Source: Parapedobacter indicus
GTDB taxonomy: Bacteria; Bacteroidota; Bacteroidia; Sphingobacteriales; Sphingobacteriaceae
Length of the DNA stretch: 64,000 nt
Assembly: GCF_900113765.1 (NCBI RefSeq)
Contig: NZ_FOQO01000001.1
Coordinates: 186,001-250,000 of the forward strand
Direction of reading: 5' to 3'
In this document: piece by piece, positions 22,246-48,742 of the stretch
Layout: every line of letters begins with the position of its first letter
How positions within the stretch are numbered: the stretch's first letter is position 1
Program-made: the position numbers and the translations under genes
Notes under the pieces: model-generated
What the model was told of the DNA's origin: nothing
What the model saw: the letters and a program-made list of their open reading frames with translations, nothing else
Databases searched by the model: none

Positions 22246-23253
22246 TTATCGTTGTATCAGCTCCGTTTCCAATACGATGTTTTCGAAATCGTATACCGGG
22301 TAGCGGCTTTCAATCAGTTGAATGAGCATCTCCATGGCTACCTGGCCCATTTTAAACGCAGGTTGGCGAATGCAAGTAAAACCCGGTTGTAGCAGGTCTA
22401 GCACGTCTGAATTGGAAAATCCGGCTACGGCAGGGTGGGATTCCCTAGGCATTAGTTTGTTGTAGGCACTGAGACATCCCATGCTGAGGCGGTCGCTGGC
22501 CACAAAAATAGCGTCAGGTTTTTCCCTAAGGTTAATAAAATAACGAGCGGCTTCGTCCACTTCCTCTTGCACGCGCCCGCCGTGATGACAATAGCGGATG
22601 AGTGACTCATCCAAGGGAATGTCGCATTGTCGCAAGGCTTCCTCATATCCTTCCAGACGCTCGGCTGTAATGGATAAATGCGGGGCATTGGCCAAATGGG
22701 CAATTTTTTTGAATCCCCGGTCAATCAAGGACAATGTAGCCTGTTTGGCGCCCTTCCGGTTGTCGGATGTCACGGTATGGGTTTCGAAATCATCAATTAC
22801 CCGATCAAAAAAGACGATGGGCAGTCCTTGTTCATGCAGCTTTAGAATATGAGAGAAGTCTTTGGTCTCTGCCGACATGGAAATCAGTAATCCATCCACC
22901 GCACGGTTGGCCAGGTGTTGTATATTAACCACCTCGCGTTCGTAGGCATCGTGGCTTTGTGAAATAATGACGTGGTAACCTTTGCCGTAGGCTACCGACT
23001 CAATGCCGTCGATGGCCTGTGAGAAAAAGCTATTGGCCACTTCGCATACTACTACGCCAATGGAGTAGCTCCGGCCGTGACGTAGGCTGGAAGCTATGGG
23101 GTTACGGCGGTAATTGTGCTTTTCGGCGTATTCAATCACACGTTTCTTTGTTTCCTCGTTGATCTCGTAACTATCACTCAATGCCCGCGAAACGGTAGAG
23201 GGCGAAAGTTCCAGCGCGTGGGCGATGTCTTTTATGGTAATGGGCTTGAACAC
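22246..23253 (-). CDS. LacI family transcriptional regulator (probable hexuronate/pectin locus regulator)
   Basis: The 335-residue repressor has an N-terminal LacI helix-turn-helix (TIKDIAHALELSPSTVSRALSD, about residues 6-27), the hinge region (about 45-60), and a periplasmic-binding-protein-like sensor domain (SIGVVVCEVANSFFSQAIDGIE). The start is GTG at 23253; the neighbouring ATG is out of frame. TAGTTTTG on the minus strand (23273-23280) is its -7-like element. It is divergent from the sigma factor gene and is the only LacI-type regulator in the window, so it is the best candidate to bind the palindromes in the locus. Effector unknown. Confidence 0.9.
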   Translation of the reverse strand: MFKPITIKDIAHALELSPSTVSRALSDSYEINEETKKRVIEYAEKHNYRRNPIASSLRHGRSYSIGVVVCEVANSFFSQAIDGIESVAYGKGYHVIISQSHDAYEREVVNIQHLANRAVDGLLISMSAETKDFSHILKLHEQGLPIVFFDRVIDDFETHTVTSDNRKGAKQATLSLIDRGFKKIAHLANAPHLSITAERLEGYEEALRQCDIPLDESLIRYCHHGGRVQEEVDEAARYFINLREKPDAIFVASDRLSMGCLSAYNKLMPRESHPAVAGFSNSDVLDLLQPGFTCIRQPAFKMGQVAMEMLIQLIESRYPVYDFENIVLETELIQR

Positions 23254-24032: not shown

Positions 24033-24134
24033 TGTTGATATTCAATTAGATAAATTGAATATCATTCTTTTTTTCGAACGGACTAGTTATTGTTTTTCAC
24101 CGGTTCGTATTCCCCATATATAACCAATGATCCT

Positions 24135-25292: not shown

Positions 25293-25323
25293 GGCAGTTC
25301 TTTTTCCAACACGAAAGACCAAA

Positions 25324-25349
25324 AACCAGAAGCCTGGCCGCTTCTGGTT
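25324..25349. other. 10-base hairpin between anti-sigma and susC1
   Basis: AACCAGAAGC (25324-25333) and GCTTCTGGTT (25340-25349) form a perfect stem with a 6-base loop. No T tract follows, so it may be an mRNA processing or attenuation structure rather than a terminator. Confidence 0.5.
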
Positions 25350-25491
25350 AGCAACAGTCTAAATTAGGCTGTTGGGGGTCATAGTTAATTGTATTGCATA
25401 ACCAATTTTCTAAAACCACATTCAAATGTATGTAAATTTTATTGTACCTCGACGCACGAAGTGTTTGTGTATCCAATCAAAGTTATGGCGA

Positions 25492-28833: not shown

Positions 28834-28860
28834 TTAACTAATTATTAATGTGTGATGATT

Positions 28861-30336: not shown

Positions 30337-30347
30337 ACGACCACACC

Positions 30348-30394
30348 TTAGGTCACCGCGTAAAAAATTAGTTGATTTTTACTCGGTGACCTAA
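30348..30394 (+). terminator. Terminator after susD1
   Basis: A long inverted repeat: left arm 30348-30366 (TTAGGTCACCGCGTAAAAA) and right arm 30376-30394 (TTTTTACTCGGTGACCTAA) pair over 19 bases with one mismatch and a 9-base loop. The 3' side of the stem supplies a T5 stretch. It separates the susC1-susD1 unit from the GH106 unit. Confidence 0.7.
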
Positions 30395-30448
30395 CAATTT
30401 TAAATACCTTACTGCGGAGAGCCTCCAATAACTCCTTTTTCAATGCGC

Positions 30449-30472
30449 CCCACTGTTTTCGGCAACGATTGC
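30449..30472. promoter_or_regulatory. LacI-type operator-like site before GH106 (site B)
   Basis: The right half GGCAACGATTGC (30461-30472) matches the consensus of sites C, D and E; the left half (CCCACTGTTTTC) is degenerate. GTATTTTA directly follows. It is 74 bases before the GH106 start. Confidence 0.6.
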
Positions 30473-30545
30473 GTATTTTACGTGGGATTGATATCCCTTT
30501 TTGTGTTTAATTTGTCGTGGTAAAGACCAGTAAAACAATATCGTT

Positions 30546-33281: not shown

Positions 33282-33316
33282 ACACCGCAATGATTGTAAA
33301 CCAAAAATCTTGTCAT

Positions 33317-34624
33317 ATGATCAGATCTGTGGAAACCCTTTTATTCATCTTGCTGTTTGCCTGTGCTACGGGTTACGGCCAGCCAGATCCCAATCAACGG
33401 GTTGCGGGATTTCCCGTAAATTACGATGAGGCGAAAGCAGGACCCTATACATTGCCCGACTTGCTAACCTTGGAAAATGGGCAGAAAGTGACCAGTAAAG
33501 AAATGTGGACCCATCAGCGCAGGCACGAAATTCACCGATTGTTTGAAACAACACAGTTCGGAAAGACACCTCCGAAACCTGTAGACCTATCATTCAAAGT
33601 ATTTGAAAATGGAACGGCAGTATTTGGAGGAAAAGCCATCCGAAAACAAGTAACTATTTATTTTACCAAAGACACGACCGACCATAAAGTGGATATATTG
33701 TTCTATTTGCCGACAAAGATGCACGAAAAGGTGCCCCTCCTGCTCAATATTTCTTTCGGCTCCAATAATAAGGCGGTCGACGATCCCGACGTCAAAGCGG
33801 GGCTCGTTTGGCCGCGGGAAGGTAAAGGCGTTGTGAGGATGCTTGCAACCCGAACTGGTGGCGAACCGCCAAGACATGCGATACCTATTGAAGACATGGT
33901 GTCCAACGGTATTGGTTTTGCTACGTTGTATTATGGTGATATAGAACCCGACCTTAAAAAGGGTATGCAACTAGGTGGTATACGGAAGTATTACCTGAAA
34001 AGGGGCCAAACCGGGCCCGAAGCAGATGAATGGGGAGCCATTGCTGCCTGGTCTTGGGGGCTGAGCCGCGTCATGGATTACCTGGAAACCGACAACCGGG
34101 TCGACGCCAAACGCGTAGCGCTCACTGGTTCATCGCGCTTGGGTAAGACCGTATTGTGGACGGGTGCCAATGACCCGCGTTTCAAAATGGTACTGGCCAG
34201 CTGTTCCGGAGAAGGTGGCGCTGCGCTGAGTAGACGTGATTATGGAGAAAATATCAAACATATGACGGATACATCGCGGTATTATTATCAGTTTGCACCC
34301 AATAGGCACTCGTATTCCAATGATTTCAACAGTTGTCCCGTTGATGCCCACGAATTGATTGCACTGATGGCGCCCCGTTATCTCTTATTGCAGACTGGCG
34401 ATACCGATTATTGGTCGGATCCGAAAGGTGAGTTCCTAGCGGCCCGGGCCGCCCAGCCCGTATATGATCTATTTGGCGTCCGGAATTTATTCCCGGAGAT
34501 GCCAAAGGCCGGAGATACTTCGTTGGCCTATCAACCGCTGGGGTATTACATGCACGATGGCGGGCACGGTATGATTCCCTCAGACTGGCAGGTATTTATT
34601 GAATACATGAAAAAATTTTTATAG
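33317..34624 (+). CDS. CE15-like alpha/beta-hydrolase esterase
   Basis: The about 435-residue secreted esterase has a signal peptide (MIRSVETLLFILLFACATGYGQ) and the CE15 nucleophile elbow GSSRLGK (271-277, Ser273), an acid at about Glu299 (SGEGGAALSRRD), and His417 in HDGGHG. CE15 was defined on glucuronoyl esterases of xylan-lignin bonds, but relatives in pectin loci act on methyl-esterified uronic acids. With GH106 and UxaC around it, esterified galacturonate side chains are the likely target. A nearby ATG at 33290 would give a longer N-terminus. Confidence 0.72.
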   Translation: MIRSVETLLFILLFACATGYGQPDPNQRVAGFPVNYDEAKAGPYTLPDLLTLENGQKVTSKEMWTHQRRHEIHRLFETTQFGKTPPKPVDLSFKVFENGTAVFGGKAIRKQVTIYFTKDTTDHKVDILFYLPTKMHEKVPLLLNISFGSNNKAVDDPDVKAGLVWPREGKGVVRMLATRTGGEPPRHAIPIEDMVSNGIGFATLYYGDIEPDLKKGMQLGGIRKYYLKRGQTGPEADEWGAIAAWSWGLSRVMDYLETDNRVDAKRVALTGSSRLGKTVLWTGANDPRFKMVLASCSGEGGAALSRRDYGENIKHMTDTSRYYYQFAPNRHSYSNDFNSCPVDAHELIALMAPRYLLLQTGDTDYWSDPKGEFLAARAAQPVYDLFGVRNLFPEMPKAGDTSLAYQPLGYYMHDGGHGMIPSDWQVFIEYMKKFL

Positions 34625-34669
34625 AATCCACGCCCTCGCCCAATTTGCAATGTGCGCTATAGCTGTCCT

Positions 34670-34693
34670 GCAATCGTTACCGGGATCGATTGC
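34670..34693. promoter_or_regulatory. LacI-type operator before susC2 (site C)
   Basis: Left half GCAATCGTTACC (34670-34681) and right half GGGATCGATTGC (34682-34693) form a near-palindrome around a central CCGG. It lies 110 bases before the susC2 start. Confidence 0.65.
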
Positions 34694-34803
34694 GTAGATA
34701 TTTTGCACCCATGTTCATCCGCTAGTTGATTATTGTCGCTATAATTGTTGTACATACGCTTATATGCCCTCAGCATAAAGGCATCCAATTAAAATCTATA
34801 ATT

Positions 34804-37800
34804 ATGAGGCAAGTACTAGTTATTAGTGTTCTGTTTTTGTGCGTGGTTTTCCATGCGGTAGGCCAAACGTCCCTCACGGGCAAAGTGACAGATTCCTTTG
34901 GCGATTCACTTCCAGGTGCTACGGTGACAGTTAAAGGAACGTCAATTTCAACAGTAACCAATGGGGAGGGGAATTACTCGCTTTCCAATGTCCCAAAAAA
35001 CGCTATTTTGCTCGTTTCATTTATCGGAATGAAGACGCAAGAAATTGCGGTTGGGAACAGGGCAACAATTGATGTAGCATTAGCTGGCGAGGCCACGCAA
35101 ATGGACGAAGCAGTGGTGGTAGGTTACGGCGTTCAGAAAAAAATCAATGTAATCGGTTCCGTTTCAACGTTATCTTCGGAGGAGATTACTGCCGCACCGG
35201 CTCCCAATGTTTCCAGTGCATTAAGTGGCCGTGTGCCTGGTCTATTCGTTACGCAGTCGAGCGGGCGCCCGGGTGCTGATAATGCCAGCTTAAATATAAG
35301 AGGAAAGGCAACGATTGGGTATCGCGAAGATACGGGTATTGATAATACCGCTGTTCTCGTGGTTATTGACGGTATTCCCGGACGAGATCTTAATTCCATA
35401 GAGCCCGGAGATATTGAAAGCCTATCCGTTTTGAAAGATGCTTCTGCGGCCATTTACGGTTCTCGCGCTGCGAATGGGGTAATATTGGTCACTACAAAAT
35501 CAGGAAAGGAAAGTCCGCCAAGGTTCGAATTTGATTTTTATTCCGGATGGTCTTCGGCGTCGGTACTTCCGGAAATGACCGATGCTGCTACGTATGCCAC
35601 CATGGTACGGGAAGTACAATCCTACAGAGGGATTCCTGAAGAAAATATGGCCTATTCGACTGAAGATGTTGAAAAGTTCAAATCGGGCAATTATCCATGG
35701 ACCCATCCGAACACCGATTGGTTCAAGAGCGTGATAAAAGATTATTCAAAGAGCGACCATTATAGTTTTAGGGTATCAGGTGGTTCCAAAGATGTAAAGT
35801 ATTACGGCGGATTCGGTGTGCAGAAGGACGATGGAATCTATAAATCCGGATCCTCATCTCATAATCGGTATAATTATCGACTCAACTTACAAGCGGATTT
35901 AAATGAGTACATCAGGCTCAACTTGAACGTAGCTGGAACGCAATCTAATATAATGGATCCTTATAACACGGAGTTTACCAGTATTATCCGTAACCTGCCG
36001 GTGTCTACGGCTATTTGGCCAACGGGCGAACCGGGCCCTGATATTGAAAAGGCGCAGCAACCGGTAACAGATACCGATGCGGATAAAACAGGGTATACAG
36101 ATAACAAACGTTATACCAGTCAGAATATGCTGACCGCTACGGTAAAAATTCCCTGGGTGGACGGGTTATCCGTAGTCGGCAACTACTCGTACGATATGGT
36201 CTTTGGTGTGCAGAAATATGTAAGAGATCTGGCAACGTTATATTTTTTGGACAAAGATGCCTACTTGGCGGCTGGAAACGATGGTAGCCAAAATGGCCAG
36301 GCCTTTTTAACGCCTCAGATTCGAGCTGAAATAGCCGATCCAAGGGTAGAAGATACCTATAGCGATGCAAAACGAGTAACGGGTAGTTTGAAGATAAATT
36401 ATGACAAATCGTTCGATAAGCACTCCATAAGCACATTTGCCGCTGTTGAAAGCATGGACTATCTTGACAAGGGAATTACTGCGTACCGCAGAGGTTTTCA
36501 AACGGTTGCCCTGCCGTATCTGAATTTTGGATCGACTGAGGAAATGAGTAATAACTCGTCTGCAAGCATCGACGCCCGGCTAAACTATTTTGGAAGACTT
36601 GCTTATAATTACGACAGTAAGTATCTGTTTGAATTTACTTTTCGAAGAGACGGTTCCCTTCGGTTTTCCAAAGATGTCGGTCGCTGGGGAAATTTCCCGA
36701 GTGTTCTTTTAGGGTGGACTGCCTCAAGCGAGGATTTCTGGCAGAATAATATCCAGGCAATTAATTATTTTAAATTAAAGGCCTCATGGGGGCAGTTGGG
36801 AAACGATGCTGTGCTCCCGTTTCAATACCTGACAATGTATGCAATAGGTGATGGACAGTCATTTGGACCATCGAGAGGTTATCAGACCAGTTTGTACCAG
36901 GTTGGAGAACCCAATCCCAACATCACCTGGGAAGTAGCCAATGTCTTCAATTTGGGATTTGAATCGCTTTTGCTGGATAGTAAAATCAGATTTGACGTTG
37001 ACGCGTTCTATCAAAAACGCACCGACATTCTCGTGGCCCGGAATGCTTCCGTGCCGGATTTTACGGGGCTGTCTTTACCGGATGAGAACTTTGGAATCGT
37101 ATCGAGCAAAGGATTTGATGCAACATTTGGATATCGCAGTAAATCGACAAACTTCGACTATGCCATAACCGGCATATTTTCCTTTGCGCGTAATAAGATT
37201 GTCGAATATGATGAGCCGGCAGTTTCGTATGATTGGCAGCGGCTAACCGGGCATCCTACGACCGCTTTTTTACAATATAAAGCCATTGGGATCTATAAAG
37301 ATGCAGATCAGGTCAACGCTACACCGCATGTTCCGGGAGCAAGACCCGGGGATGTGATATTGGCAGATTACAATGGAGACGGTGAAATCACGGAAGCCGA
37401 TCGGATTGTTTACAATCTGAACGGGGACCCGGAAATTACTTTTGGCGTTAATCTTTCTGTGCGGTACAAAAATATACAATTGCAGGCGTTGGTACAGGGG
37501 GTTGGAAACAACTGGCGGCGGATTGCTGATACAGAAGGTGATTTTATATACATGGGAACCTTCGGTAATTACTTTCAATATTATGCAAATGATAGATGGA
37601 CGGAATCCAATACCGATGCAACGATGCATAGAGCATTTGAACGGGTAGAAGAATACTGGAGAAAAGATGCATATCTATCCAGTTTTGATTATTATAACAT
37701 GGCGTTTGCCCGTCTTAAAAGCGTGGAGCTTTCTTATACATTTACGGAGAACCTATTGAAATCAGTACGACTTAAAGGAGCAAGCGTATATGTTACCGGT

Positions 37801-37917
37801 AAAAATCTGTTTTTTCTGTATAACAAAAATGCAGTGGGAACAGATCCGGAAGTAGCTTCGGTCTCTACTTATCCCACTACCCGGGTGCTGGCATTGGGTG
37901 CAAGGGTCTCTTTTTAA
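34804..37917 (+). CDS. SusC/RagA TonB-dependent transporter without STN domain (SusC2)
   Basis: The 1,037-residue transporter has a signal peptide (MRQVLVISVLFLCVVFHAVGQ), then directly a carboxypeptidase-regulatory-like domain (TSLTGKVTDSFGDSLPGATVTVKG), the plug (DEAVVVGYG) and the barrel, ending LALGARVSF. Unlike SusC1 it lacks the STN domain, so it is not expected to signal to FecR. The ATG at 34804 is chosen because the signal peptide begins there. Operator C lies 110 bases upstream, and SusD2 follows after 18 bases. Confidence 0.92.
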   Translation: MRQVLVISVLFLCVVFHAVGQTSLTGKVTDSFGDSLPGATVTVKGTSISTVTNGEGNYSLSNVPKNAILLVSFIGMKTQEIAVGNRATIDVALAGEATQMDEAVVVGYGVQKKINVIGSVSTLSSEEITAAPAPNVSSALSGRVPGLFVTQSSGRPGADNASLNIRGKATIGYREDTGIDNTAVLVVIDGIPGRDLNSIEPGDIESLSVLKDASAAIYGSRAANGVILVTTKSGKESPPRFEFDFYSGWSSASVLPEMTDAATYATMVREVQSYRGIPEENMAYSTEDVEKFKSGNYPWTHPNTDWFKSVIKDYSKSDHYSFRVSGGSKDVKYYGGFGVQKDDGIYKSGSSSHNRYNYRLNLQADLNEYIRLNLNVAGTQSNIMDPYNTEFTSIIRNLPVSTAIWPTGEPGPDIEKAQQPVTDTDADKTGYTDNKRYTSQNMLTATVKIPWVDGLSVVGNYSYDMVFGVQKYVRDLATLYFLDKDAYLAAGNDGSQNGQAFLTPQIRAEIADPRVEDTYSDAKRVTGSLKINYDKSFDKHSISTFAAVESMDYLDKGITAYRRGFQTVALPYLNFGSTEEMSNNSSASIDARLNYFGRLAYNYDSKYLFEFTFRRDGSLRFSKDVGRWGNFPSVLLGWTASSEDFWQNNIQAINYFKLKASWGQLGNDAVLPFQYLTMYAIGDGQSFGPSRGYQTSLYQVGEPNPNITWEVANVFNLGFESLLLDSKIRFDVDAFYQKRTDILVARNASVPDFTGLSLPDENFGIVSSKGFDATFGYRSKSTNFDYAITGIFSFARNKIVEYDEPAVSYDWQRLTGHPTTAFLQYKAIGIYKDADQVNATPHVPGARPGDVILADYNGDGEITEADRIVYNLNGDPEITFGVNLSVRYKNIQLQALVQGVGNNWRRIADTEGDFIYMGTFGNYFQYYANDRWTESNTDATMHRAFERVEEYWRKDAYLSSFDYYNMAFARLKSVELSYTFTENLLKSVRLKGASVYVTGKNLFFLYNKNAVGTDPEVASVSTYPTTRVLALGARVSF

Positions 37918-37935: not shown

Positions 37936-39843
37936 ATGAAACGATATTTGATAGTTGCCTTCTTGTTTTTTGCTACTGCATGCAGCAAAAATATTCTAGA
38001 TAAAACTCCTTTGGACCAATATTCGGATGAAATCGTATGGTCCAGTCCGGAGCTTGCAAGTTCTTACCTGAATTACTGTTACGACGGACTTGGTCATGGT
38101 TTTCAGAGTGTTAAAGCAAGTAATTTTACCGATGAGGCTATATTTGGAAGAGGGGCGAGTACAACCACGCTTCTGAACGGAACGATGTCTCCCGATGCCG
38201 CCATTGGCCAGCATTTTATGGAGCCGTATCGGTGGACGCAATTCGAACAGATACAGCGTATCAATCAGTTCCTTGAGAAAATTGATGGGATTGCAGATAC
38301 CTATCCTTCCGGACAACAAGCGGACGTAAAAATAAAAACAGATATTTTAAAAGGAGAGGCGTTGTTTTTGCGGGCATTCAATTATTGCAACATGGCCCGT
38401 AGCTACGGAGGTTTGCCTTTATTGAACAAAGCGGCTAAATTAAATGATGATTTTTCGACAGTTACAAGGGCCACTTTTGAAGAAACCGTTAATTTTATCG
38501 TGGCAGACTGTGACGCTGCCGCCGCACTGTTGCCGCTTAAATCGGAACAAGTGCTGGGACGGGCGTGTAAAGAAGCTGCTTTAGCGCTTAAAGCAAGGAT
38601 GTTATTATTTGCAGCAAGTGAGCTCACAGCCGGGGACGTGTCAGGTATCGGTATAAGTGCCGACAATGCGCTTGTTCACTACGTAAATCCCGATAGGACT
38701 GCATTATGGACAGCTGCAAAAAATGCTGCTAAGGAGTTAATGGAACTTCCCGGTTCTTCGTTGGCATTGGCCGATTTCGGGGCATCGGGTGGTGATAAGG
38801 CAACGGTAGCGCAAAACTATCGAGCGTTGACAGGAAATAGCACCACACCGGCCGACGGTGAATTCATATTTGCGAAAATGTTTGATCAAGCATTGGGTAC
38901 CCGGCACCGGAATAATCAAATAGACGGACCAAACGGGTATGATGGACTTTATGGAAGAAATGCACCGCTACAACGAATGGTGGATGAATACGAAATGGAG
39001 GATGGTACAGATTTCTTTGATCATTATTATATCGAAGAGGTGGCTGAGGGATCAAACACGGGCAGGTATATAAAAAATAAGCCGGAAACTACGGGTTTTG
39101 AAGATCAAAACCCCTATCATAATCGTGAAGCGAGATTTTATGCGAATGTATTGTATGATAGCGCCATATATGACATTGAACCCAGGCCCTCGAGCTTAAA
39201 ACTTCGGGACCCTGTAGGGATTTACGATAGACGTACGCGCGTGACGATCAAAGCGGATGGATCAGAGACGGTTGTCTACGGATTGGATACACGTAACGGC
39301 CCGATTGTAGCGGGCAACGGTAATTATGTCGGGTATTTGACAATGAAATGGGTGCAGCAAGGGGTTACCGGTAGCACAGATTATAATTTCAACATTTGGC
39401 CTTATCTCCGCTACACCGAAGTGGTACTTGGCTACGCGGAAGCTTGCTGGGAGTTAGGCGAATATGAAGAAACCAGAACGTGGGTGGATTTTTTCAGAAA
39501 CCGTGTACTTCTTCCCAATACGACCGCAACGGATGCTGAATTAAGAGATGCGTTAAGGCATGAACGGAAAATTGAACTATATGGGGAAGAATCACGGTGG
39601 TTTGACATAAGAAGGTGGGTAATCATGGCCGAAACGATGACGCCGCCACAGTATGGTGTCGAAATCACGGAAATAACCGATAATAGGAACACACCAGCAA
39701 CGGTTACAACTACATGGAAATATAATCAGGCAATGCCAAACAATATCATGACAAATGCCGTATATTGGTTGCCCATCACAACAACTGAGCGCCAGAAAGC
39801 TCCTCAATTGTTGCAAAACCCCAATTATCGCGAGGATATTTAA
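37936..39843 (+). CDS. SusD/RagB family nutrient-binding lipoprotein (SusD2)
   Basis: The 635-residue lipoprotein (lipobox FFATACSKN) shows the SusD fold: GEALFLRAFNYCNMARSYGGLPLLNK, KARMLLFAASELT, and a C-terminal region finishing YWLPITTTERQKAPQLLQNPNY. At 635 residues it is about 100 longer than SusD1, with inserts around residues 290-380. It pairs with SusC2 18 bases upstream and is the end of that unit. Confidence 0.92.
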   Translation: MKRYLIVAFLFFATACSKNILDKTPLDQYSDEIVWSSPELASSYLNYCYDGLGHGFQSVKASNFTDEAIFGRGASTTTLLNGTMSPDAAIGQHFMEPYRWTQFEQIQRINQFLEKIDGIADTYPSGQQADVKIKTDILKGEALFLRAFNYCNMARSYGGLPLLNKAAKLNDDFSTVTRATFEETVNFIVADCDAAAALLPLKSEQVLGRACKEAALALKARMLLFAASELTAGDVSGIGISADNALVHYVNPDRTALWTAAKNAAKELMELPGSSLALADFGASGGDKATVAQNYRALTGNSTTPADGEFIFAKMFDQALGTRHRNNQIDGPNGYDGLYGRNAPLQRMVDEYEMEDGTDFFDHYYIEEVAEGSNTGRYIKNKPETTGFEDQNPYHNREARFYANVLYDSAIYDIEPRPSSLKLRDPVGIYDRRTRVTIKADGSETVVYGLDTRNGPIVAGNGNYVGYLTMKWVQQGVTGSTDYNFNIWPYLRYTEVVLGYAEACWELGEYEETRTWVDFFRNRVLLPNTTATDAELRDALRHERKIELYGEESRWFDIRRWVIMAETMTPPQYGVEITEITDNRNTPATVTTTWKYNQAMPNNIMTNAVYWLPITTTERQKAPQLLQNPNYREDI

Positions 39844-39872
39844 TTTAAACGATTCCGGTGCCAGAAGATTTC

Positions 39873-39896
39873 GCAAACGTTTTCGGTAACGATTGC
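39873..39896. promoter_or_regulatory. LacI-type operator before Gfo/Idh/MocA gene (site D)
   Basis: Left half GCAAACGTTTTC (39873-39884) and right half GGTAACGATTGC (39885-39896). It lies 166 bases before the gene start at 40062. Confidence 0.65.
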
Positions 39897-40061
39897 GGAA
39901 ATAAAAGGGCCGGATTCCTTCTTCGGCTTGAAAGATTACGGTATCATTGTAGTCAAGTGCTAACTGATTACTAAAAGAAAAGGCGATCGGTGCATTTATC
40001 AAGCGATCCTGTATTTTGACCATTAATATAGTAATAGTCACCATTATAAAATCAAATAGAG

Positions 40062-41405
40062 ATGAAATCAACAAATTCACGCCGAGAATTTATCAAACAG
40101 GCTTCAATGGGAGCCGGAGTCGCTGGGCTATCCGCGATGGGGTTCAGCGCAAAAAGCTATGCAAAGATTATCGGAGCTAACGACCGGGTGCGGGTAGGTA
40201 TCGTTGGATTTTCCAATCGGTTTAGAGGCTCGCTGTTCCCAGCCTTTATGAATCATGCAAAGGCTCAGAATTTTGAATTTGTAGCAGTTTCGGACTTGTG
40301 GAATCGCCGTCGTGACGAAGCATATGCCTATGCGAAGGAAAAGGCAGGTATTGAAATCGCAAAGTACCGCAACAACGATGAACTTTTTCCACGGACCGAT
40401 GTGGATGCAGTGATCATCAGTACGGCTGACTTCCAGCATGCCCTGATTGCGGCGGATGCCGTGCGCCACGGAAAGGATGTGTACGTAGAAAAGCCGATGG
40501 CAGAATCCATCGAAGATGCCAAAACGCTACGGAAAGCGGTGGAAGAAACCGGAAAGATTCTTCAGGTTGGGTCGCAGCGGCGCAGTGCTCCTAACTACAT
40601 CGCGGCCAACGAGTACATCCGGTCCGGCAAATTCGGAGACATTAAAATGGTAGAAATGACCTGGAATGTGAATCAGCCCGGTCGCTGGCGTTTGCCCGAG
40701 TTAACAAAGGAAATCCGCGAAAAGGATACCGATTGGAACCGTTTCCTGATGAACCGCCCGAAAGTGGCGTGGAATCCACGCTATTACCTCGAATACCGCC
40801 TGTTCTGGCCCTATTCGTCCGGAATCTTCGGCCAGTGGATGGCTCACCAAATCGATACTGTACACTGGTTTACAGACCTGCCGCATCCGCGTAGCGTAGT
40901 TGCGAATGGAGGTATCTATATGTGGAACGATGGCCGTATCAACCCGGATACACTGACTGCGGTGATGGACTATGGCCCGGCAAACGACCCTACAAAAGGA
41001 TTCCAAGTGCAATATTCGTCGCGGTTTACCAACTCCGCCGGTGGTGTGAAGGAACTGTACTTCTCGAACGCGGGCTCACTAAACCTTGATACCAATGAAG
41101 TGACTTCAGAGGGCGGGTTAACGCAGCGTATGGCAGACCAGATGGGAATGAAGGAAAATCTCCTTGAGCCATTTACCCTTTCAAATGCTGCAAAAATAGA
41201 AACGTCAGCAAATACCGGAAGTGATCCGATGACTTCATTACACATGCTGAATTGGATGGAATGCGTGCGGAATCGGAAAAAACCGAATGCAGATGTCGTG
41301 GCCGGATACAATCACTCTGTAGCCAATATTATGGGACACACGGCCTATGAGACCGGCAAACGGGTAACGTTCGACGACGAAAAGCAAGAAGTAGTGGTTT
41401 CTTAA
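40062..41405 (+). CDS. Exported Gfo/Idh/MocA family oxidoreductase
   Basis: The 447-residue dehydrogenase carries a Tat signal peptide (NSRREFIKQASMGAGVAGL, twin Arg at residues 7-8), so it is exported folded, probably with NAD(P) bound. The Rossmann part reads VGIVGFSNRFRGS and the family motif is EKPMAES. Periplasmic members in Bacteroidota take part in 3-keto-glycoside chemistry, but the substrate here is open. DUF6807 follows after 14 bases; operator D is upstream. Confidence 0.88.
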   Translation: MKSTNSRREFIKQASMGAGVAGLSAMGFSAKSYAKIIGANDRVRVGIVGFSNRFRGSLFPAFMNHAKAQNFEFVAVSDLWNRRRDEAYAYAKEKAGIEIAKYRNNDELFPRTDVDAVIISTADFQHALIAADAVRHGKDVYVEKPMAESIEDAKTLRKAVEETGKILQVGSQRRSAPNYIAANEYIRSGKFGDIKMVEMTWNVNQPGRWRLPELTKEIREKDTDWNRFLMNRPKVAWNPRYYLEYRLFWPYSSGIFGQWMAHQIDTVHWFTDLPHPRSVVANGGIYMWNDGRINPDTLTAVMDYGPANDPTKGFQVQYSSRFTNSAGGVKELYFSNAGSLNLDTNEVTSEGGLTQRMADQMGMKENLLEPFTLSNAAKIETSANTGSDPMTSLHMLNWMECVRNRKKPNADVVAGYNHSVANIMGHTAYETGKRVTFDDEKQEVVVS

Positions 41406-41419
41406 TTGATGAGACGCAG

Positions 41420-42508
41420 ATGAAAACAGCAACTATTTTAGTAGGTGCCCTTGCGCTATCCACAGCCCTTGCGGGCTGCGGACAATCCCAGTCGGGACAG
41501 TCGCAGTCCGAACAGGGGTCAGCTGAGCAGACCGATCGGTTCTCGTTCGTTGAGCATCCCGAAAGTAACAGCATAGCGGTATTGCTTGACGGGCAGCCTT
41601 ATACCGCCTATTGTTATGCTGACAGCTTAAAAAAGCCGGTATTGTTCCCCTTACGTACCAAAGGCGGGCATTTCATAACGAGAGGATGGCCCGTGCAGCC
41701 TCGGGCAAACGAGCGAACAGATCATCCACACCACATTGGACTGTGGTTTAATTATGGCGATGTAAACGGGCTTGATTTTTGGAACAACTCACCGGCCATC
41801 CCAGCCGAAAAGCGGATGGGCTACGGAAGTATCCACCACGCAGCCGTTAACGAGACAGAAAGTAAGGGAAATACGGGGGTCCTTGATGTCACTAAATATT
41901 GGATGGGACCGCAGGGAGACAGTCTCTTGAAAGAAGATACCCGGTATGTTTTCCAAGTGGAAGACGATAGCAGTACTTCCATTGAGCTGGATATCAAATT
42001 GACGGCACTGAAAGATGTGTCACTGAAGGATAATAAAGAAGGTGTGCTGGGCATACGGCTAGCCCGTGAGCTCGAACATCCCTCCGATCAGCCCGCTAAA
42101 TTTACCGATGCCAACGGCATTGTCACTGAAGTGGCGAAGGCCAACAACGAGGGAGTTACCGGGCACTACGTGAGCAGCGAAGGTATCGAGGGTGATGATG
42201 TGTGGGGAACACGGGGAAAATGGGTTACACTTAATGGAACCATCCAAGGAGAGGACGTATCGCTCGTTATTCTTGATCATTCCGGGAATCCGGGATATCC
42301 CACGTATTGGCATGCACGCGGCTACGGGCTGTTCGCGGCTAATCCGCTGGGACAGAAAGAACTCAGTGGTGGAAAAGATGTGCTGAATTTCAAATTGGAT
42401 AACGGCTCATCAACCCGGTTCAGGTATAAGGTCTTAATCCATGCTGGAAGCAAATTGGATGCTGCTGCCATCAACGATCGGTTTGTGGAATTCAGCGGTC
42501 AACAATAA
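41420..42508 (+). CDS. DUF6807 (PmoA-like annotated) lipoprotein
   Basis: The 362-residue lipoprotein has a lipobox LAGC (Cys20), a low-complexity GQSQSGQSQSEQGS linker, and the DUF6807 core with RGWPVQPRANERTDHPHHIGLWFNYGDVNGLDFW. The many His residues (HPHHIG) are a plausible metal site. Databases sometimes call this family PmoA, but it is not methane monooxygenase. It is tightly coupled to the exported Gfo/Idh/MocA gene, which suggests one shared periplasmic task. Function unknown. Confidence 0.82.
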   Translation: MKTATILVGALALSTALAGCGQSQSGQSQSEQGSAEQTDRFSFVEHPESNSIAVLLDGQPYTAYCYADSLKKPVLFPLRTKGGHFITRGWPVQPRANERTDHPHHIGLWFNYGDVNGLDFWNNSPAIPAEKRMGYGSIHHAAVNETESKGNTGVLDVTKYWMGPQGDSLLKEDTRYVFQVEDDSSTSIELDIKLTALKDVSLKDNKEGVLGIRLARELEHPSDQPAKFTDANGIVTEVAKANNEGVTGHYVSSEGIEGDDVWGTRGKWVTLNGTIQGEDVSLVILDHSGNPGYPTYWHARGYGLFAANPLGQKELSGGKDVLNFKLDNGSSTRFRYKVLIHAGSKLDAAAINDRFVEFSGQQ

Positions 42509-42524
42509 ACCACTTTCTTATCCG

Positions 42525-42560
42525 AATTGCGCAAACGTTGCCGGCAACGTTTGCGCAATT
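42525..42560. promoter_or_regulatory. 36-base perfect palindrome, LacI-type operator before uxaB (site E)
   Basis: Bases 42525-42560 are a perfect palindrome. Its core halves are GCAAACGTTGCC and GGCAACGTTTGC (42531-42554), flanked by AATTGC and GCAATT. It is the strongest member of the operator family. It sits 162 bases before uxaB. The 213-base gap between DUF6807 and uxaB holds nothing else I can name. Confidence 0.85.
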
Positions 42561-42721: not shown

Positions 42722-44095
42722 ATGAATTTACTGAACAGGCAATTAATTAAGGAACGTCCTTATCCTGAAAAGGTACTCCAATTCGGAACAGGTGTATTGC
42801 TTCGTGGGTTGCCAGACTATTTTATTGAAAAAGCGAATAAAACGGGGCTATTTGGCGGAAGTATCGTTGTAGTGAAGTCGACGGCGTCGGGAGGTACGGA
42901 TAAATTCGAGCTGCAGGATAATTTGTATACGCTCCATATCAAAGGACTTGAAAAAGGAGTGGATGTACAGGATGTGCTGTTGGTATCGGCAATCAGCCGA
43001 GTCGTTTCCGCTGCCAGCGATTGGACGGCTATTTTGGACGTCGCCAGAAACCCCGAAGTGGAAACGGTTATTTCAAATACCACCGAAGTAGGAATTGTTT
43101 TCGACGAGCAGGATGATCCGCTGACTTCGCCACCGGTGTCTTTTCCTGGTAAACTGACCGCAGTTTTGTTGGAACGGTTCCGTGCTTTCAGCGGCGCGAA
43201 GGACAAGGGTATGATTATTCTTCCCACCGAACTTATTGATAAAAATGGGGATGTGTTGCGGGACATCATAATCGCAATGGCCGAGCGTCATCAGTTGGGA
43301 GCTGATTTTATCAATTGGATAAAACGCTGTAACCATTTTTGCAATACGCTGGTTGACCGGATTGTACCGGGTAGTTTGAGTGCATCCGAACAGGAACAAG
43401 CGGAAAGCCAGCTAGGCTATAAAGATGAGTTGGCCATTATGGCTGAACCATTTTGCCTTTGGGCCATCGAGTCGTCCCATCCGCGTGTGTCGGAAGTGCT
43501 CTCATTTGCACGCGCAGACAAACGGGTGGTGATTACCCCTGATATTCAGAAATTTAAAGAGCTGAAACTTCGCCTGCTCAACGGAAGCCACACGTTTGCG
43601 TGTGGATTGGCCATACTGGCGGGCTTCGATACGGTCAAAGAGGCCATGGCCGATCCGGTGTTTTCGAAGTATGTAAAACAAGTGATGCACAAAGAGATTA
43701 TTCCTACCTTGTTAGAGGTAGGAATAGATAAGGGAGAAGCGTCGGAATTTGCAGACCATGTGATTGATCGGTTCGGAAACCCATACCTCCATCATCAATG
43801 GCAGAGCATCAGTACAAACTACACGTCTAAAATGCGGATGCGCAACCTGCCGACGATCGCACGTTATGTGCAACGGTATAACGAAGTGCCGGCCTACATG
43901 GCGTTGGGTTTTGCAGGGTATTTACAGTTTATGAAGGCTACGGAAGGCAATGAATTGTTCGCCGTGTGGGAAGCGGATCTACTGCCATACACCGGTTTCC
44001 GGAATGCAGTGGAGGACTACATAACCCGTCTGGAGACACAGCCTGTATTGGACGTGATCAATCAATTGAATAGAAACGAGGAAGCGAGGGATTAG
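42722..44095 (+). CDS. uxaB: Tagaturonate reductase (altronate oxidoreductase)
   Basis: The 457-residue NAD-dependent enzyme is a member of the mannitol dehydrogenase family and reduces tagaturonate to altronate. Typical stretches are KVLQFGTGVLLRGLPDYFIEKANKTGLFGGSIVVVKST near the N-terminus, NTTEVGI, and KLRLLNGSHTFACGLAILAGFDTVKEAM with the catalytic Lys region. Operator E lies upstream and uxaA starts 3 bases after its stop. Confidence 0.93.
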   Translation: MNLLNRQLIKERPYPEKVLQFGTGVLLRGLPDYFIEKANKTGLFGGSIVVVKSTASGGTDKFELQDNLYTLHIKGLEKGVDVQDVLLVSAISRVVSAASDWTAILDVARNPEVETVISNTTEVGIVFDEQDDPLTSPPVSFPGKLTAVLLERFRAFSGAKDKGMIILPTELIDKNGDVLRDIIIAMAERHQLGADFINWIKRCNHFCNTLVDRIVPGSLSASEQEQAESQLGYKDELAIMAEPFCLWAIESSHPRVSEVLSFARADKRVVITPDIQKFKELKLRLLNGSHTFACGLAILAGFDTVKEAMADPVFSKYVKQVMHKEIIPTLLEVGIDKGEASEFADHVIDRFGNPYLHHQWQSISTNYTSKMRMRNLPTIARYVQRYNEVPAYMALGFAGYLQFMKATEGNELFAVWEADLLPYTGFRNAVEDYITRLETQPVLDVINQLNRNEEARD

Positions 44096-44098
44096 GTT

Positions 44099-45742
44099 AT
44101 GGATGTCCGTGTATTGAAAATTCACCCCGACGATAATGTGTTGGTTGCCTTGCAGGACCTAAAGTCGGGTGAGCGCGTCGTCTGCGACGGCAACGCCTAC
44201 GTGCTGATGGAAGATATAGCCGCAAAGCATAAATTTTTTACCGACGACCTGTCTGCGGGCAGCGCAGTGATGATGTACGGTGTGATAGTGGGACGTGCGT
44301 TACACGATGTGAAAGCCGGGCAATGGATGAGTACGGGCAACGTAAGGCATGCTACGGAACCCTATGGCTATCGGCCGTACCACTATACATGGGAGGTGCC
44401 GGATGTTTCTACGTTTGAAAACCGGTCGTTCCTCGGCTATCATCGTAGCGATGGACGCGTAGGGACTGCCAATTATTGGCTGTTTATCCCCACCGTATTC
44501 TGCGAGAACCGTAACCTGGACGTGATACGGGAGGCGATGCACAACGAACTGGGGTATGCCGTTACGGATAGGTATCGCGCTAAGACCCATATGCTGCGCA
44601 AACTGTACCAGCAGGGAGAGGACGTGGCTTCAGCCGACCTCACGGTGCGTGAATCGGTTGTGCCGGTAGACCGGCTATTTAAGAATGTGGATGGCATTAA
44701 GTTCCTTAACCATCAAGGAGGGTGTGGCGGTATCCGGCAGGATGCGGCGGTATTGGGTAAATTGCTGGCCGCATATGCCAATCATCCCAACGTAGCAGGG
44801 GTTACGGTACTTAGCCTCGGATGCCAAAATCTACAGGTACGTGATTTCCTGGATGACCTCTATGCATTGAATCCGAAATTCGACAAACCCTTGCTGATTT
44901 TTGAGCAACAACAATCCCAAAGCGAAGAACAACTGGTTACAGATGCAATCCGGCAAACCTTTATCGGTCTTATTGAGGCCGATAAATGCATACGTAGTCC
45001 GGCACCCTTGAGTAAACTCTCCATCGGCGTTAAATGTGGCGGAAGCGATGGCTTTAGCGGTATATCGGCCAATCCGGCGGTAGGGCATTGTGCTGATCTA
45101 CTGGTTGCCCTCGGCGGGACCGTCTTGTTGGCCGAATTTCCGGAACTATGCGGCGCGGAGCAAAACTTAATTGATCGGACGATCGACGAAGAGGCCGCCC
45201 ATAAATTCATTCGGTTGATGAAGGACTACAGCGAAGCAGCCGATCGGGTAGGATCCGGCTTCCACATGAATCCTTCTCCGGGAAATATACGCGATGGATT
45301 GATAACGGATGCCATCAAGAGCAATGGGGCAGCAAAAAAAGGGGGGACCTCGCCAGTCGTCGATGTGCTTGACTATACCGAACAGGCTACAAAACCCGGA
45401 TTGAATTTGGTCTGTACACCTGGAAACGACGTTGAGGCAACAACAGGTAAAGCAGCAAGCGGCGCAACATTGATCCTGTTTACCACCGGACTGGGTACAC
45501 CCACTGGGAATCCGATCTGCCCGGTCATCAAGGTTGCGACCAACACGGGCCTCGCGGAACGGATGGCCGATATCATCGATATCGATTGCGGTCCGATCAT
45601 AGCGGGAACACGGACCATCCAGCAGATGGGAGAAGATATATTGGCGTATTGCATACGCGCAGCTTCGGGCGAAGTAGTACCAAAAGCGGTACAGCTTAAC
45701 CAGGACGACTTTATTCCTTGGAAACGGGGAGTTTCATTGTAA
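44099..45742 (+). CDS. uxaA: Altronate dehydratase
   Basis: The 547-residue UxaA has an N-terminal SAF domain (about residues 1-100, HPDDNVLVALQDLKSGERV) and a C-terminal catalytic domain with HQGGCGG, GVKCGGSDGFSGISANPAVG and FTTGLGTPTGNPICPVIKVATNT. It dehydrates altronate to 2-keto-3-deoxygluconate, needs Fe2+, and is the third step of galacturonate catabolism. The gap to uxaB is 3 bases and to uxaC 16 bases, a compact operon. Confidence 0.94.
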   Translation: MDVRVLKIHPDDNVLVALQDLKSGERVVCDGNAYVLMEDIAAKHKFFTDDLSAGSAVMMYGVIVGRALHDVKAGQWMSTGNVRHATEPYGYRPYHYTWEVPDVSTFENRSFLGYHRSDGRVGTANYWLFIPTVFCENRNLDVIREAMHNELGYAVTDRYRAKTHMLRKLYQQGEDVASADLTVRESVVPVDRLFKNVDGIKFLNHQGGCGGIRQDAAVLGKLLAAYANHPNVAGVTVLSLGCQNLQVRDFLDDLYALNPKFDKPLLIFEQQQSQSEEQLVTDAIRQTFIGLIEADKCIRSPAPLSKLSIGVKCGGSDGFSGISANPAVGHCADLLVALGGTVLLAEFPELCGAEQNLIDRTIDEEAAHKFIRLMKDYSEAADRVGSGFHMNPSPGNIRDGLITDAIKSNGAAKKGGTSPVVDVLDYTEQATKPGLNLVCTPGNDVEATTGKAASGATLILFTTGLGTPTGNPICPVIKVATNTGLAERMADIIDIDCGPIIAGTRTIQQMGEDILAYCIRAASGEVVPKAVQLNQDDFIPWKRGVSL

Positions 45743-45758
45743 CAAAGCAACATACAAA

Positions 45759-47174
45759 ATGAAGAAATTTTTGGATGAGCATTTTCTGTTGAGTACAGAT
45801 ACCGCTCAGATTTTATACCATGAATATGCGGCAAACATGCCCATCATTGATTATCATTGCCACCTGCCGCCGCAACAGATCGCTGAGAATACCCATTTTG
45901 ATAATATCACACAGGTGTGGCTCAATGGCGATCATTACAAATGGAGGGCCATGCGGACAAACGGTGTCGATGAACGTTATATTACCGGCGATGCATCCGA
46001 CCGTGAGAAATTCCGTAAATGGGCCGAAACGGTGCCTTACACCATGCGGAACCCGCTGTATCACTGGACACACCTAGAGCTGCAACGCTATTTCGGTATA
46101 TCGGAACTCCTAAATCCAGGTACCGCAGATCGCATATTTGATGAGACCGAGGAAAAACTCCAATCACCAGAATACCGCGTGCGCGGATTGCTGGAACGCA
46201 TGAATGTGAAAATCATCTGTACGACAGATGACCCCACAGATACACTCGATTTTCACCAGCAATTGCGCGAAGAAGCCTACGAAATCCCGGTCTTCCCGGC
46301 ATTTCGCCCAGATGCAGGAATGAATCTCAGCGACCTGGGTAAATTTAAAGCGTACGTTGCGGCTTTGGAGAACGTGTCGGGTCGCTCCATCTCAGGTTTT
46401 GACGATTACCTATACGCGCTCAAATCCCGCCATGATTTTTTTGCATCTATGGGCTGCTGTGTGTCCGACCATGGATTGGAAGAGATATATGCCGAAGACT
46501 ATACGGATGAAGAGGTTCGACGCATCTTTGAAAAGGCGTTGACGGGACAGGCAGTGTCCGACTTGGAACACCGGAAATTTAAATCGGCGCTGTTGCTCGT
46601 ATTTGCGCAATGGGATGCGGAAAAAAATTGGGTGCAGCAATATCACTTGGGCGCTTTGCGCAATAACAATTCGCGGATGATGGCGAAACTGGGGCCCGAT
46701 ACCGGTTGGGATTCCATCGGTGACTTCCGACATGGAAAAGCGCTTTCTAAATTTCTCGATAGGCTCGATCGTGATAATCAACTGGCAAAGACAATTTTAT
46801 ATAACCTGAACCCAGCCGACAATGAATTGATGGCAACGATGATCGGAAATTTCAATGACGGGTCTGTGGCTGGTAAGATTCAATTTGGGTCAGCCTGGTG
46901 GTTCCTCGACCAAAAAGATGGAATGATCAAACAGATCAATGCATTAGCCAATATGGGGTTGTTAAGCCGCTTTTTGGGTATGCTGACCGATTCACGAAGT
47001 TTCCTTTCCTTCCCCCGCCACGAGTATTTCCGGCGGCTCCTGTGCGACTTATTCGGAACGGAAATTGAAAATGGTGAATTGCCAAATGACCTGCCATGGA
47101 TCGGACGGATGATCCAAGATATCTGCTATCACAACGCAAACCGGTACTTTGGCTGGAATGAACTTTCGCGGTGA
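45759..47174 (+). CDS. uxaC: Glucuronate/galacturonate isomerase
   Basis: The 471-residue uronate isomerase has the amidohydrolase-like metal site MPIIDYHCHLPPQQIAENTHF and typical ICTTDDPTDTLDFHQQL and DSRSFLSFPRHEYFRRLLCDL. It converts D-galacturonate to D-tagaturonate, and D-glucuronate to D-fructuronate. With UxaB and UxaA but no UxuA/UxuB in this window, the galacturonate branch is favoured. Confidence 0.95.
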   Translation: MKKFLDEHFLLSTDTAQILYHEYAANMPIIDYHCHLPPQQIAENTHFDNITQVWLNGDHYKWRAMRTNGVDERYITGDASDREKFRKWAETVPYTMRNPLYHWTHLELQRYFGISELLNPGTADRIFDETEEKLQSPEYRVRGLLERMNVKIICTTDDPTDTLDFHQQLREEAYEIPVFPAFRPDAGMNLSDLGKFKAYVAALENVSGRSISGFDDYLYALKSRHDFFASMGCCVSDHGLEEIYAEDYTDEEVRRIFEKALTGQAVSDLEHRKFKSALLLVFAQWDAEKNWVQQYHLGALRNNNSRMMAKLGPDTGWDSIGDFRHGKALSKFLDRLDRDNQLAKTILYNLNPADNELMATMIGNFNDGSVAGKIQFGSAWWFLDQKDGMIKQINALANMGLLSRFLGMLTDSRSFLSFPRHEYFRRLLCDLFGTEIENGELPNDLPWIGRMIQDICYHNANRYFGWNELSR

Positions 47175-47290: not shown

Positions 47291-48742
47291 ATGATGACTT
47301 CTAGCCAGCGAGCCAGTAAATACAGATGGACGATTTGCTATTTGCTTTTTTTTGCCACTACAATCAATTATTTGGATAGACAGGTTCTTTCATTGACGTG
47401 GAAAGATTTCATCGTTCCGGAGTTTCATTGGACGAATAGTGATTATGGAAATATCGCCGCCATCTTTTCGTTGGTATATGCCATCGGAATGCTGTTCGCG
47501 GGGAGGTTTGTGGATTGGCTGGATACCAAAAAAGGGTTTCTATGGGCAATTGGTATCTGGTCTGTTGGTGCTTGTTTGCATGCATATTGCGGGATTGCTA
47601 CAGCGGGTGTCCTCACGGGCAATTGGTTTGTCGGTTTTGAACAGGCGAAAGAGTTGCTTGGTACGGTCGGCGATGTAGGGAGCGTCATTTCGGTCAGCGT
47701 CTCCTTGTTTATTGTTGCCCGGATTGTGTTAGCACTTGGTGAATCGGGCAATTTTCCGGCAGCCATTAAAGCGACGGCGGAGTTTTTTCCAAAAAAAGAC
47801 CGTGGATTTGCGACTAGTATTTTTAACGCCGGATCAACAGTAGGAGCATTGGCTGCACCGGTGACCGTTCCCTTTATTGCAGAAGCTTATGGTTGGGAGG
47901 CATCCTTTATCATTATCGGGGCATTGGGATTCATCTGGATGGGTTTTTGGCTTTTCATGTACAAAAAGCCGCATGAGCACCCCAAAGTCAATGCGGCTGA
48001 GCTGGCTTATATTCAGCAGGACGATGTGGAAAAACAGCCGTCGACGGCGACGGACCAACCGTCGGTACGTAGAAAAATGTCTTTCTTGCAGGCATTTGGA
48101 TACAGGCAAACATGGGCGTTTGCGGTAGGCAAATTCATGACGGACGGAGTTTGGTGGTTTTTCCTGTTTTGGACGCCTGCATACCTTAGTTCGGTTTATA
48201 ATTTAGACTCTACGGAAAGCGCGCTACATATATTTGTGCTCTATGCACTCACATTGTTGTCGATAATAGGCGGATGGCTGCCTACTTATTTTGTAGATAA
48301 AAAGGGAATGAATGCGTATGCCGGCCGAATGAAATCAATGCTGATCTTTGCGTTCTTCCCGTTATTGACACTGCTTGCACAGCCGTTGGGTCATATCTCC
48401 GTATGGATTCCGATATTGATTATCGGTATAGCTGCTGCAGCGCACCAAGCGTGGTCTGCGAATATTTTTTCGACAATCGGCGATATGTTTCCACGGTCAA
48501 GTGTGGCCACCATTACCGGAATCGGCGGAATGGCCGGTGGTGTCGGGTCCTTCTTTATCAACAAAGGATCGGGCATGCTTTTCGATCATGCAGCCAACAC
48601 AGATATGAAATTTATGGGCTTTACTGGAATTGAATCGGGATATTTCATTATTTTTTCAATTTGTTCGGTTGCCTATTTAATCGGCTGGGTCATCATGAAG
48701 TCGCTGGTGCCGCATTATGCACCGATAACGGATATTGACTAG
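47291..48742 (+). CDS. MFS transporter, ExuT-like hexuronate permease
   Basis: The 483-residue MFS protein has about 12 hydrophobic segments and the anion:cation symporter-type start YRWTICYLLFFATTINYLDRQVLSLTWKDFIVPEF, typical of ExuT-like hexuronate permeases; the cytoplasmic loop is at about 240-265 (KPHEHPKVNAAELAYIQQDDVEKQ). Position directly behind uxaBAC supports galacturonate/glucuronate uptake across the inner membrane. It has its own palindrome (site F), so it may be transcribed separately, and ends at a bidirectional terminator. Confidence 0.88.
   Translation: MMTSSQRASKYRWTICYLLFFATTINYLDRQVLSLTWKDFIVPEFHWTNSDYGNIAAIFSLVYAIGMLFAGRFVDWLDTKKGFLWAIGIWSVGACLHAYCGIATAGVLTGNWFVGFEQAKELLGTVGDVGSVISVSVSLFIVARIVLALGESGNFPAAIKATAEFFPKKDRGFATSIFNAGSTVGALAAPVTVPFIAEAYGWEASFIIIGALGFIWMGFWLFMYKKPHEHPKVNAAELAYIQQDDVEKQPSTATDQPSVRRKMSFLQAFGYRQTWAFAVGKFMTDGVWWFFLFWTPAYLSSVYNLDSTESALHIFVLYALTLLSIIGGWLPTYFVDKKGMNAYAGRMKSMLIFAFFPLLTLLAQPLGHISVWIPILIIGIAAAAHQAWSANIFSTIGDMFPRSSVATITGIGGMAGGVGSFFINKGSGMLFDHAANTDMKFMGFTGIESGYFIIFSICSVAYLIGWVIMKSLVPHYAPITDID

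Follow-up and report, generated by a model that had tools for sequence, protein, structure and literature searches.

Oxidative cleavage through 3-keto intermediates has recently been described as a way to break glycosides other than by glycosidases. The 3-keto glycoside pathway of Bacteroides and Alistipes (BT2156-BT2160 type) was reportedly described by Nasseri et al. in Nature in 2024, a paper cited in PMC12550630, and the proteins of the PDB series 8tdf, 8tdh, 8tda and 8tcd are presumably those of this type of pathway. To our knowledge, DUF6807 is not one of its components. Redox-neutral NAD-dependent glycosidases also exist, namely GH109 and the NAD-dependent sulfoquinovosidases. In rhizobia and Agrobacterium, ThuAB serves disaccharide assimilation via 3-keto derivatives, according to the part of PMC4765114 that cites Ampomah 2013. 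DUF1080 proteins have been proposed or shown to hydrolyse 3-keto-glycosides (PMC9007349). DUF6807 (PF14100) is a family without assigned function that occurs in Bacteroidota, Acidobacteria, Gemmatimonadota and others; our literature search on it returned nothing beyond a metagenomic operon in which Lac161_ORF9 (PF14100) is flanked by the lactose-cleaving ORF7 and ORF10 (PMC5342196). A search for literature on 3-keto uronide chemistry found nothing relevant.

Parapedobacter is a soil bacterium. We analysed a window of 64,000 nucleotides from Parapedobacter indicus (the whole stretch of DNA under study), in which the genes for an exported dehydrogenase and a DUF6807 lipoprotein, both intact and spaced 14 bp apart, lie within a hexuronate locus. 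The features are the following.

22246..23253 (-), LacI-family regulator (PF00356/PF00532), probable owner of the operator
34669..34694 (.), LacI-type operator upstream of SusC2
34726..37917 (+), SusC-like TonB-dependent transporter (SusC2; PF07715), operator-controlled
37936..39843 (+), SusD-like lipoprotein (SusD2; PF07980, 8e-48)
39872..39897 (.), LacI-type operator upstream of the pair, CGCAAACGTTTTCGGTAACGATTGCG
40062..41405 (+), Tat-exported Gfo/Idh/MocA dehydrogenase (GFO*), 447 aa, PF01408; candidate hexuronoside/glycoside 3-dehydrogenase
41420..42508 (+), DUF6807 lipoprotein, 362 aa, PF14100; galactose-mutarotase-like supersandwich fold predicted
42530..42555 (.), LacI-type operator upstream of uxaB
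42722..44095 (+), UxaB tagaturonate reductase (PRK03643, 533 bits against a cutoff of 359)
44099..45742 (+), UxaA-type altronate dehydratase (GD_AH domains, 5e-96)
45759..47174 (+), UxaC uronate isomerase (PF02614, 4e-210)
47291..48742 (+), MFS transporter, probable hexuronate importer (PF07690, 1e-46)

The UxaA-type protein scored far below the cutoff of the galactarate-dehydratase model. We detected neither a DUF1080 nor a PF01261 gene in the locus of the pair.

The locus resembles the BT2156-BT2160 route in its exported Gfo/Idh/MocA dehydrogenase and in that relatives of the pair adjoin DUF1080 and PF01261 proteins that have solved homologues in the PDB series, but its dehydrogenase falls far under the BT_2158 and BT_2159 cutoffs and the Parapedobacter module is tied to galacturonate catabolism without a local DUF1080. 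The P2B11 glucuronide-3-dehydrogenase (8tdi) offers a precedent, as a Gfo/Idh/MocA enzyme annotated for C3 oxidation of a uronide, although the sequence similarity is weak and the substrate is a glucuronide, not a galacturonide. ThuA genes adjoin, or are fused to, distant DUF6807 genes, whereas the Parapedobacter locus has no ThuA gene. The Caulobacter lactose pathway (LacABC and DUF1080) likewise has a periplasmic oxidation and then a DUF1080 step, but with another type of dehydrogenase, and DUF6807 is not reported there (PMC9007349). Finally, galactose mutarotase (aldose 1-epimerase) has the supersandwich fold predicted for DUF6807, yet the two have no sequence or profile relation. We interpret the pair as belonging to a variant of this oxidative 3-keto pathway, in which the chemistry would be known and the novelty would be a galacturonate-regulated module with an uncharacterised DUF6807 protein. 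An earlier note on this DNA had proposed an undescribed pathway step, which fits the DUF6807 step but not the 3-keto chemistry itself, already described. If DUF6807 were catalytic in a 3-keto route, a family without function would gain a role and, if the reading is true, galacturonate-containing glycans would join the substrates of that route. The pair, its regulator and a defined set of relatives allow a direct test of the question.

The earlier note had called the first protein a Tat-exported Gfo/Idh/MocA oxidoreductase, and our searches agreed: the leader is of the twin-arginine type (NSRREFIKQ), with R7, R8 and F10 invariant in 27 orthologues, and PF01408 matched at 7.9e-20 (72 bits against a cutoff of 24). 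The EKP catalytic motif (E143-K144-P145) was invariant among the orthologues, and H262 and D265 were conserved, as were K144 and P145. Judged by the PF01408 match and the EKP motif, the protein belongs to the Gfo/Idh/MocA oxidoreductases. The best NCBIfam match was the BT_2158 glycoside 3-dehydrogenase (NF058561; 103 bits, below the curated cutoff of 750), and the score against the BT_2159 disaccharide 3-dehydrogenase equivalog (NF058563) was 38.7 bits, under the curated cutoff of 650. The closest solved relatives by sequence were 8tdf/8tdh (8tdf, E 1.1e-18), while 8tdi reached E 5.4e-5 by sequence, with ~17% identity in the structural alignment, and GH109 was much weaker than 8tdf (E 1.6e-5). 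The predicted structure (pLDDT 73) matched 3-dehydrogenases in Foldseek, including the glucoside-3-dehydrogenase 8tdf and the glucuronide-3-dehydrogenase 8tdi, and was also near GH109 (6t2b) and the NAD-dependent glycoside hydrolases 8qc2 and 8qc5.

The second protein was confirmed as a DUF6807 lipoprotein, with the lipobox LAGC and a match to PF14100 at 4.2e-74 (250 bits against a gathering threshold of 27, model positions 2-268 of 270). Its closest relatives were those of P. pyrenivorans and P. defluvii (89%). Across 44 relatives, ~60 columns were invariant, many of them His, Asp, Glu or Arg, and including E98-R99, D101-H102-P103-H104, W297-H298 and R300. The HPHHIG motif singled out in the earlier note thus lies in a conserved region (H105 was kept in at least 90% of the 44 relatives), although "His-rich" was overstated for a protein with ~12 His in 362 residues. 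The AlphaFold (AF2) model (pLDDT 88, pTM 0.85) matched galactose mutarotase in Foldseek (E 1e-6, probability 1.00), and VIA aligned it with GalM (Z ~16) and with the beta-sandwich of the PL26 exo-rhamnogalacturonan lyase (Z 17.7, rmsd 3.2, 239 residues). We found no relation to solved proteins by sequence or profile, no profile link with hhalign to the GalM proteins that the genome itself encodes, and no Pfam match to PF01263 (aldose 1-epimerase); the likeness is therefore one of fold, not of family.

The operator is a 26-bp palindrome, CGCAAnCGnTnnCGnTAACGnTTGCG, located before SusC2 (34669), the dehydrogenase (39872, ~165 bp 5' of the gene) and uxaB (42530). No copies were expected by chance in the window, according to shuffled sequence, and a scan of the whole genome (6.16 Mb, at most 2 mismatches) returned three sites only, before SusC2, the pair and uxaBAC-MFS. 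Four other species share the operator (P. pyrenivorans, P. defluvii, P. soli and P. koreensis): it precedes SusC, or else the head of the operon, and/or uxaB, and the copy before uxaB is conserved in the last three. Sphingobacterium sp. JB170 has it at the head of a GH105-uxaB-uxaA-uxaC-MFS operon; in Olivibacter it is close to genes for pectinesterase, GH28/SusCD and LacI. In both of these genomes the pair is elsewhere. Since it is shared with pectin and galacturonate genes in related genera, we consider it a pectin/galacturonate operator. Among the relatives compared, only the P. indicus genome had it immediately 5' of the dehydrogenase, and palindromes at that position in other genera showed nothing consistent; as far as sampled, the pair is in the pectin/galacturonate regulon only in Parapedobacter. 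The earlier note had placed the pair in one operon with an operator of the galacturonate family. The operator was found, and because the pair has its own copy, we describe the pair as co-regulated with uxaBAC, a shared transcript being less certain.

The LacI protein at 22246..23253 is the probable owner of the operator, judging from gene neighbourhood: in P. pyrenivorans and P. koreensis its orthologues (86-90%) adjoin the corresponding operon, which begins with this operator, LacI and SusC2 being directly divergent in P. pyrenivorans, and the P. defluvii orthologue lies just 5' of that operon. In the window, LacI (22246) is separated from the SusC2 operon by a block of ECF/FecR, SusCD1, GH106 and CE15 genes (23433-34624) without an operator; in P. 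defluvii only GH106-CE15 lies between them. The GH106 frame (30546-33281) and the CE15 frame (33224-34624) overlap by 58 bp, and the listed CE15 start is a TTG, the real start probably being further in. Neither P. pyrenivorans nor P. koreensis has GH106 or CE15 at this position.

We searched 395 Bacteroidota genomes with the dehydrogenase as query and recovered an orthologous clade in 28 of them, with 56-70% identity and usually in single copy. Near the clade dehydrogenase (27 loci) we found DUF6807 in 11 loci, DUF1080 in 15 and PF01261 in 5. DUF1080 was near in 2 of the 11 loci with DUF6807 versus 13 of the 16 without it (Fisher p 0.002, kinship-uncorrected). In a tree built from 70 dehydrogenases, the presence of DUF6807 was gained or lost at least 8 times, and among 5 independent pairs DUF1080 changed opposite to DUF6807 in ~3.5 and in the same direction in ~0.1, which is not significant and has low power. 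In this sample, DUF6807 and DUF1080 tend to alternate beside the orthologous dehydrogenase.

Hexuronate genes beside the orthologous dehydrogenase showed ~7 changes on the tree. In particular, we found UxaBAC in Parapedobacter, UxaC in Kriegella/Aurantibacter and in the L152 and L154 genomes, UxaA-SDR-UxuA in Pleomorphovibrio, and GMC-UxuA-SDR in L139. In L139 a GMC-type FAD oxidoreductase (4255-5958) follows the orthologous Gfo gene, and DUF6807 and DUF1080 are both missing. CE15 lay directly 5' of the pair in Segetibacter and Paraflavisolibacter, PL11 directly 5' of a DUF1080-Gfo-DUF6807 operon in Flavobacterium, and GH28 was also among the adjoining pectin/uronate genes. The P. soli operon reads pectinesterase, GDSL esterase, GH28, GH88, the pair and uxaBAC. 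The earlier note had suggested a rhamnose- or uronate-containing glycoside: the uronide link is supported, by the co-regulation and by UxaA/UxaC/UxuA, CE15, GH28 and PL11 near the orthologues, while a rhamnoside substrate for the pair is weak, because GH106 and CE15 lack the operator and vary between species.

The partners of DUF6807 were counted in 80 loci from named genomes, a sample in which close relatives of the query are over-represented, by comparing the density of genes up to 2.5 kb from DUF6807 with that 4-8 kb away; the DUF1080 profile was built without the DUF1080-DUF6807 fusion proteins. A Gfo gene was present within 2.5 kb in 67 of the 80 loci (0.188 versus 0.009 per kb), DUF1080 (PF06439, 3-keto-disaccharide hydrolase) in 21 (0.073 versus 0.002 per kb) and a PF01261 TIM barrel in 29 (0.078 versus 0.002 per kb), with at least one of the three in 71. 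In the P. indicus genome, a Gfo gene adjoined 3 of the 5 DUF6807 genes and was a few genes off in the remaining 2; the genome holds 61 PF01408 genes, and adjacency by chance is estimated at ~2% (for ~5,200 genes). The four genes PF01261, DUF1080, Gfo and DUF6807 were consecutive in Adhaeribacter rhizoryzae (L015), whose DUF1080 protein matched 8tda and whose PF01261 protein matched 8tcd/8tcs/8tct; 8tdf/8tdh, 8tda and 8tcd belong to one numbered PDB series that includes glucoside-3-dehydrogenase. The PF01261 protein of Algoriphagus (L018) was of a different subfamily, closest to D-tagatose 3-epimerase.

We also found DUF1080 and DUF6807 in a single chain, followed by a Gfo gene, in Portibacter lacus (L046:7374-8966) and in a Bacteroidetes MAG (L057:5931-7529). 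By sequence, DUF6807 tends repeatedly to stand in for, or be fused to, the known cleavage enzyme. DUF6807 also co-occurs with DUF1080 in the Maribacter group and Flavobacterium and is therefore not simply its substitute. ThuA lay within 130 bp of DUF6807 in L043, L091, L100 and L102. A DUF6807-ThuA fusion of 746 aa (L103:5314-7554) and a DUF6807-DUF7133-HEAT-cytochrome c fusion of 1337 aa (L106:3044-7057) are further ties of DUF6807 to sugar oxidation. The DUF1080, PF01261 and ThuA partners and the fusions lend good support to 3-keto chemistry, which the earlier note had suggested, as a candidate role of the pair. One of the conditions under which that note would have given up its proposal was a pair common outside uronate loci and without conserved partners; the pair is indeed common outside them, but conserved partners are present in many of those loci.

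On balance, belief and doubt weigh about equally for us on the proposal that the two proteins form a periplasmic module for oxidative cleavage within a locus for galacturonate oligosaccharides, and that DUF6807 acts on the 3-keto intermediate. The gene structure, the export signals, the shared operator, the conservation of partners, the fusions and the predicted fold are its observed basis, and we infer oxidation at C3, the identity of the substrate, what DUF6807 does, the recycling of the cofactor and the order of the steps. The oligosaccharide would enter via SusCD2, and the Tat-exported dehydrogenase, carrying its own NAD(H), would oxidise a ring hydroxyl of the uronide, at C3 by analogy. 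The ketone would acidify the neighbouring proton, so that elimination and a subsequent hydration could break the glycosidic bond. Most likely, the DUF6807 lipoprotein would perform or complete this cleavage, which is the job of DUF1080 in the related Bacteroides route. Re-reduction of the keto sugar would close the NAD cycle, and free galacturonate would be taken up by the MFS importer and processed by UxaC, UxaB and UxaA. In a stronger form, which we consider rather unlikely, DUF6807 would be a new family of 3-keto-glycoside lyases or hydrolases with a mutarotase-like fold that replaces DUF1080 and, with the dehydrogenase clade, makes up an oxidative glycosidase system that is specific to uronides and dispenses with classical glycoside hydrolases and polysaccharide lyases.

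DUF6807 might instead be a mutarotase- or epimerase-like helper that equilibrates the keto sugar or the free uronate (anomers or C2 epimers), with cleavage by a DUF1080 protein encoded elsewhere. The mutarotase-like fold, the 29 PF06439 domains above cutoff elsewhere in the genome, and the coexistence and fusion of DUF6807 with DUF1080 would fit such a helper, but the supersandwich fold is widespread and includes non-catalytic domains, the profile comparison with GalM and the PF01263 search were negative, and the alternation with DUF1080 suggests a role beyond a helper; we consider this explanation unlikely. The structural proximity of the dehydrogenase to GH109, 8qc2 and 8qc5, as well as to 3-dehydrogenases, would suit a redox-neutral NAD-dependent glycosidase acting alone, with DUF6807 as a non-catalytic substrate-binding lipoprotein. 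We regard that as very unlikely, given that the separate cleavage partners DUF1080 and PF01261 recur beside the same Gfo orthologue, that the invariant columns of DUF6807 look catalytic, and that 8tdf is far ahead of GH109 by sequence.

The pair could also be a passenger that processes another glycoside, unrelated to uronides, and was recruited behind the galacturonate operator in Parapedobacter. It lies outside LacI/uxa or uronate loci in Sphingobacterium, Olivibacter and most Algoriphagus, and just 20 of the 80 DUF6807 loci had any uronate/pectin gene within 8 kb, yet hexuronate genes adjoin the orthologous Gfo gene in unrelated lineages (Parapedobacter, Pleomorphovibrio, the Maribacter group, L139, L152 and L154) and the P. 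soli operon joins the pair to pectin genes and uxaBAC, which makes a passenger role distinctly improbable. Demethylation of 4-O-methyl-glucuronate, a candidate prompted by CE15, was dropped because the co-regulated enzymes, UxaB and UxaA, are those of the galacturonate branch and the glucuronate-type UxaC/UxuA set is elsewhere. That separate UxaC-UxuA pair (L137, G000:C19:374406-376970) has no operator and is the probable glucuronate branch.

A second DUF6807-Gfo pair in the P. indicus genome (L089, G000:C18:71000-86000) was accompanied by sulfatase, SusCD and ECF/FecR genes, which suggests a sulfated glycan as its target. In two other loci, an ApbE gene (flavin transferase) lay amid Gfo genes (L144:7490-8401 and L104:4059-4985), a hint that the exported dehydrogenase may have a flavinylated electron-transfer partner. 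Finally, one Gfo/Idh/MocA frame of the P. indicus genome (G000:C28:28301-28636) contained an internal TAA and is probably a pseudogene.
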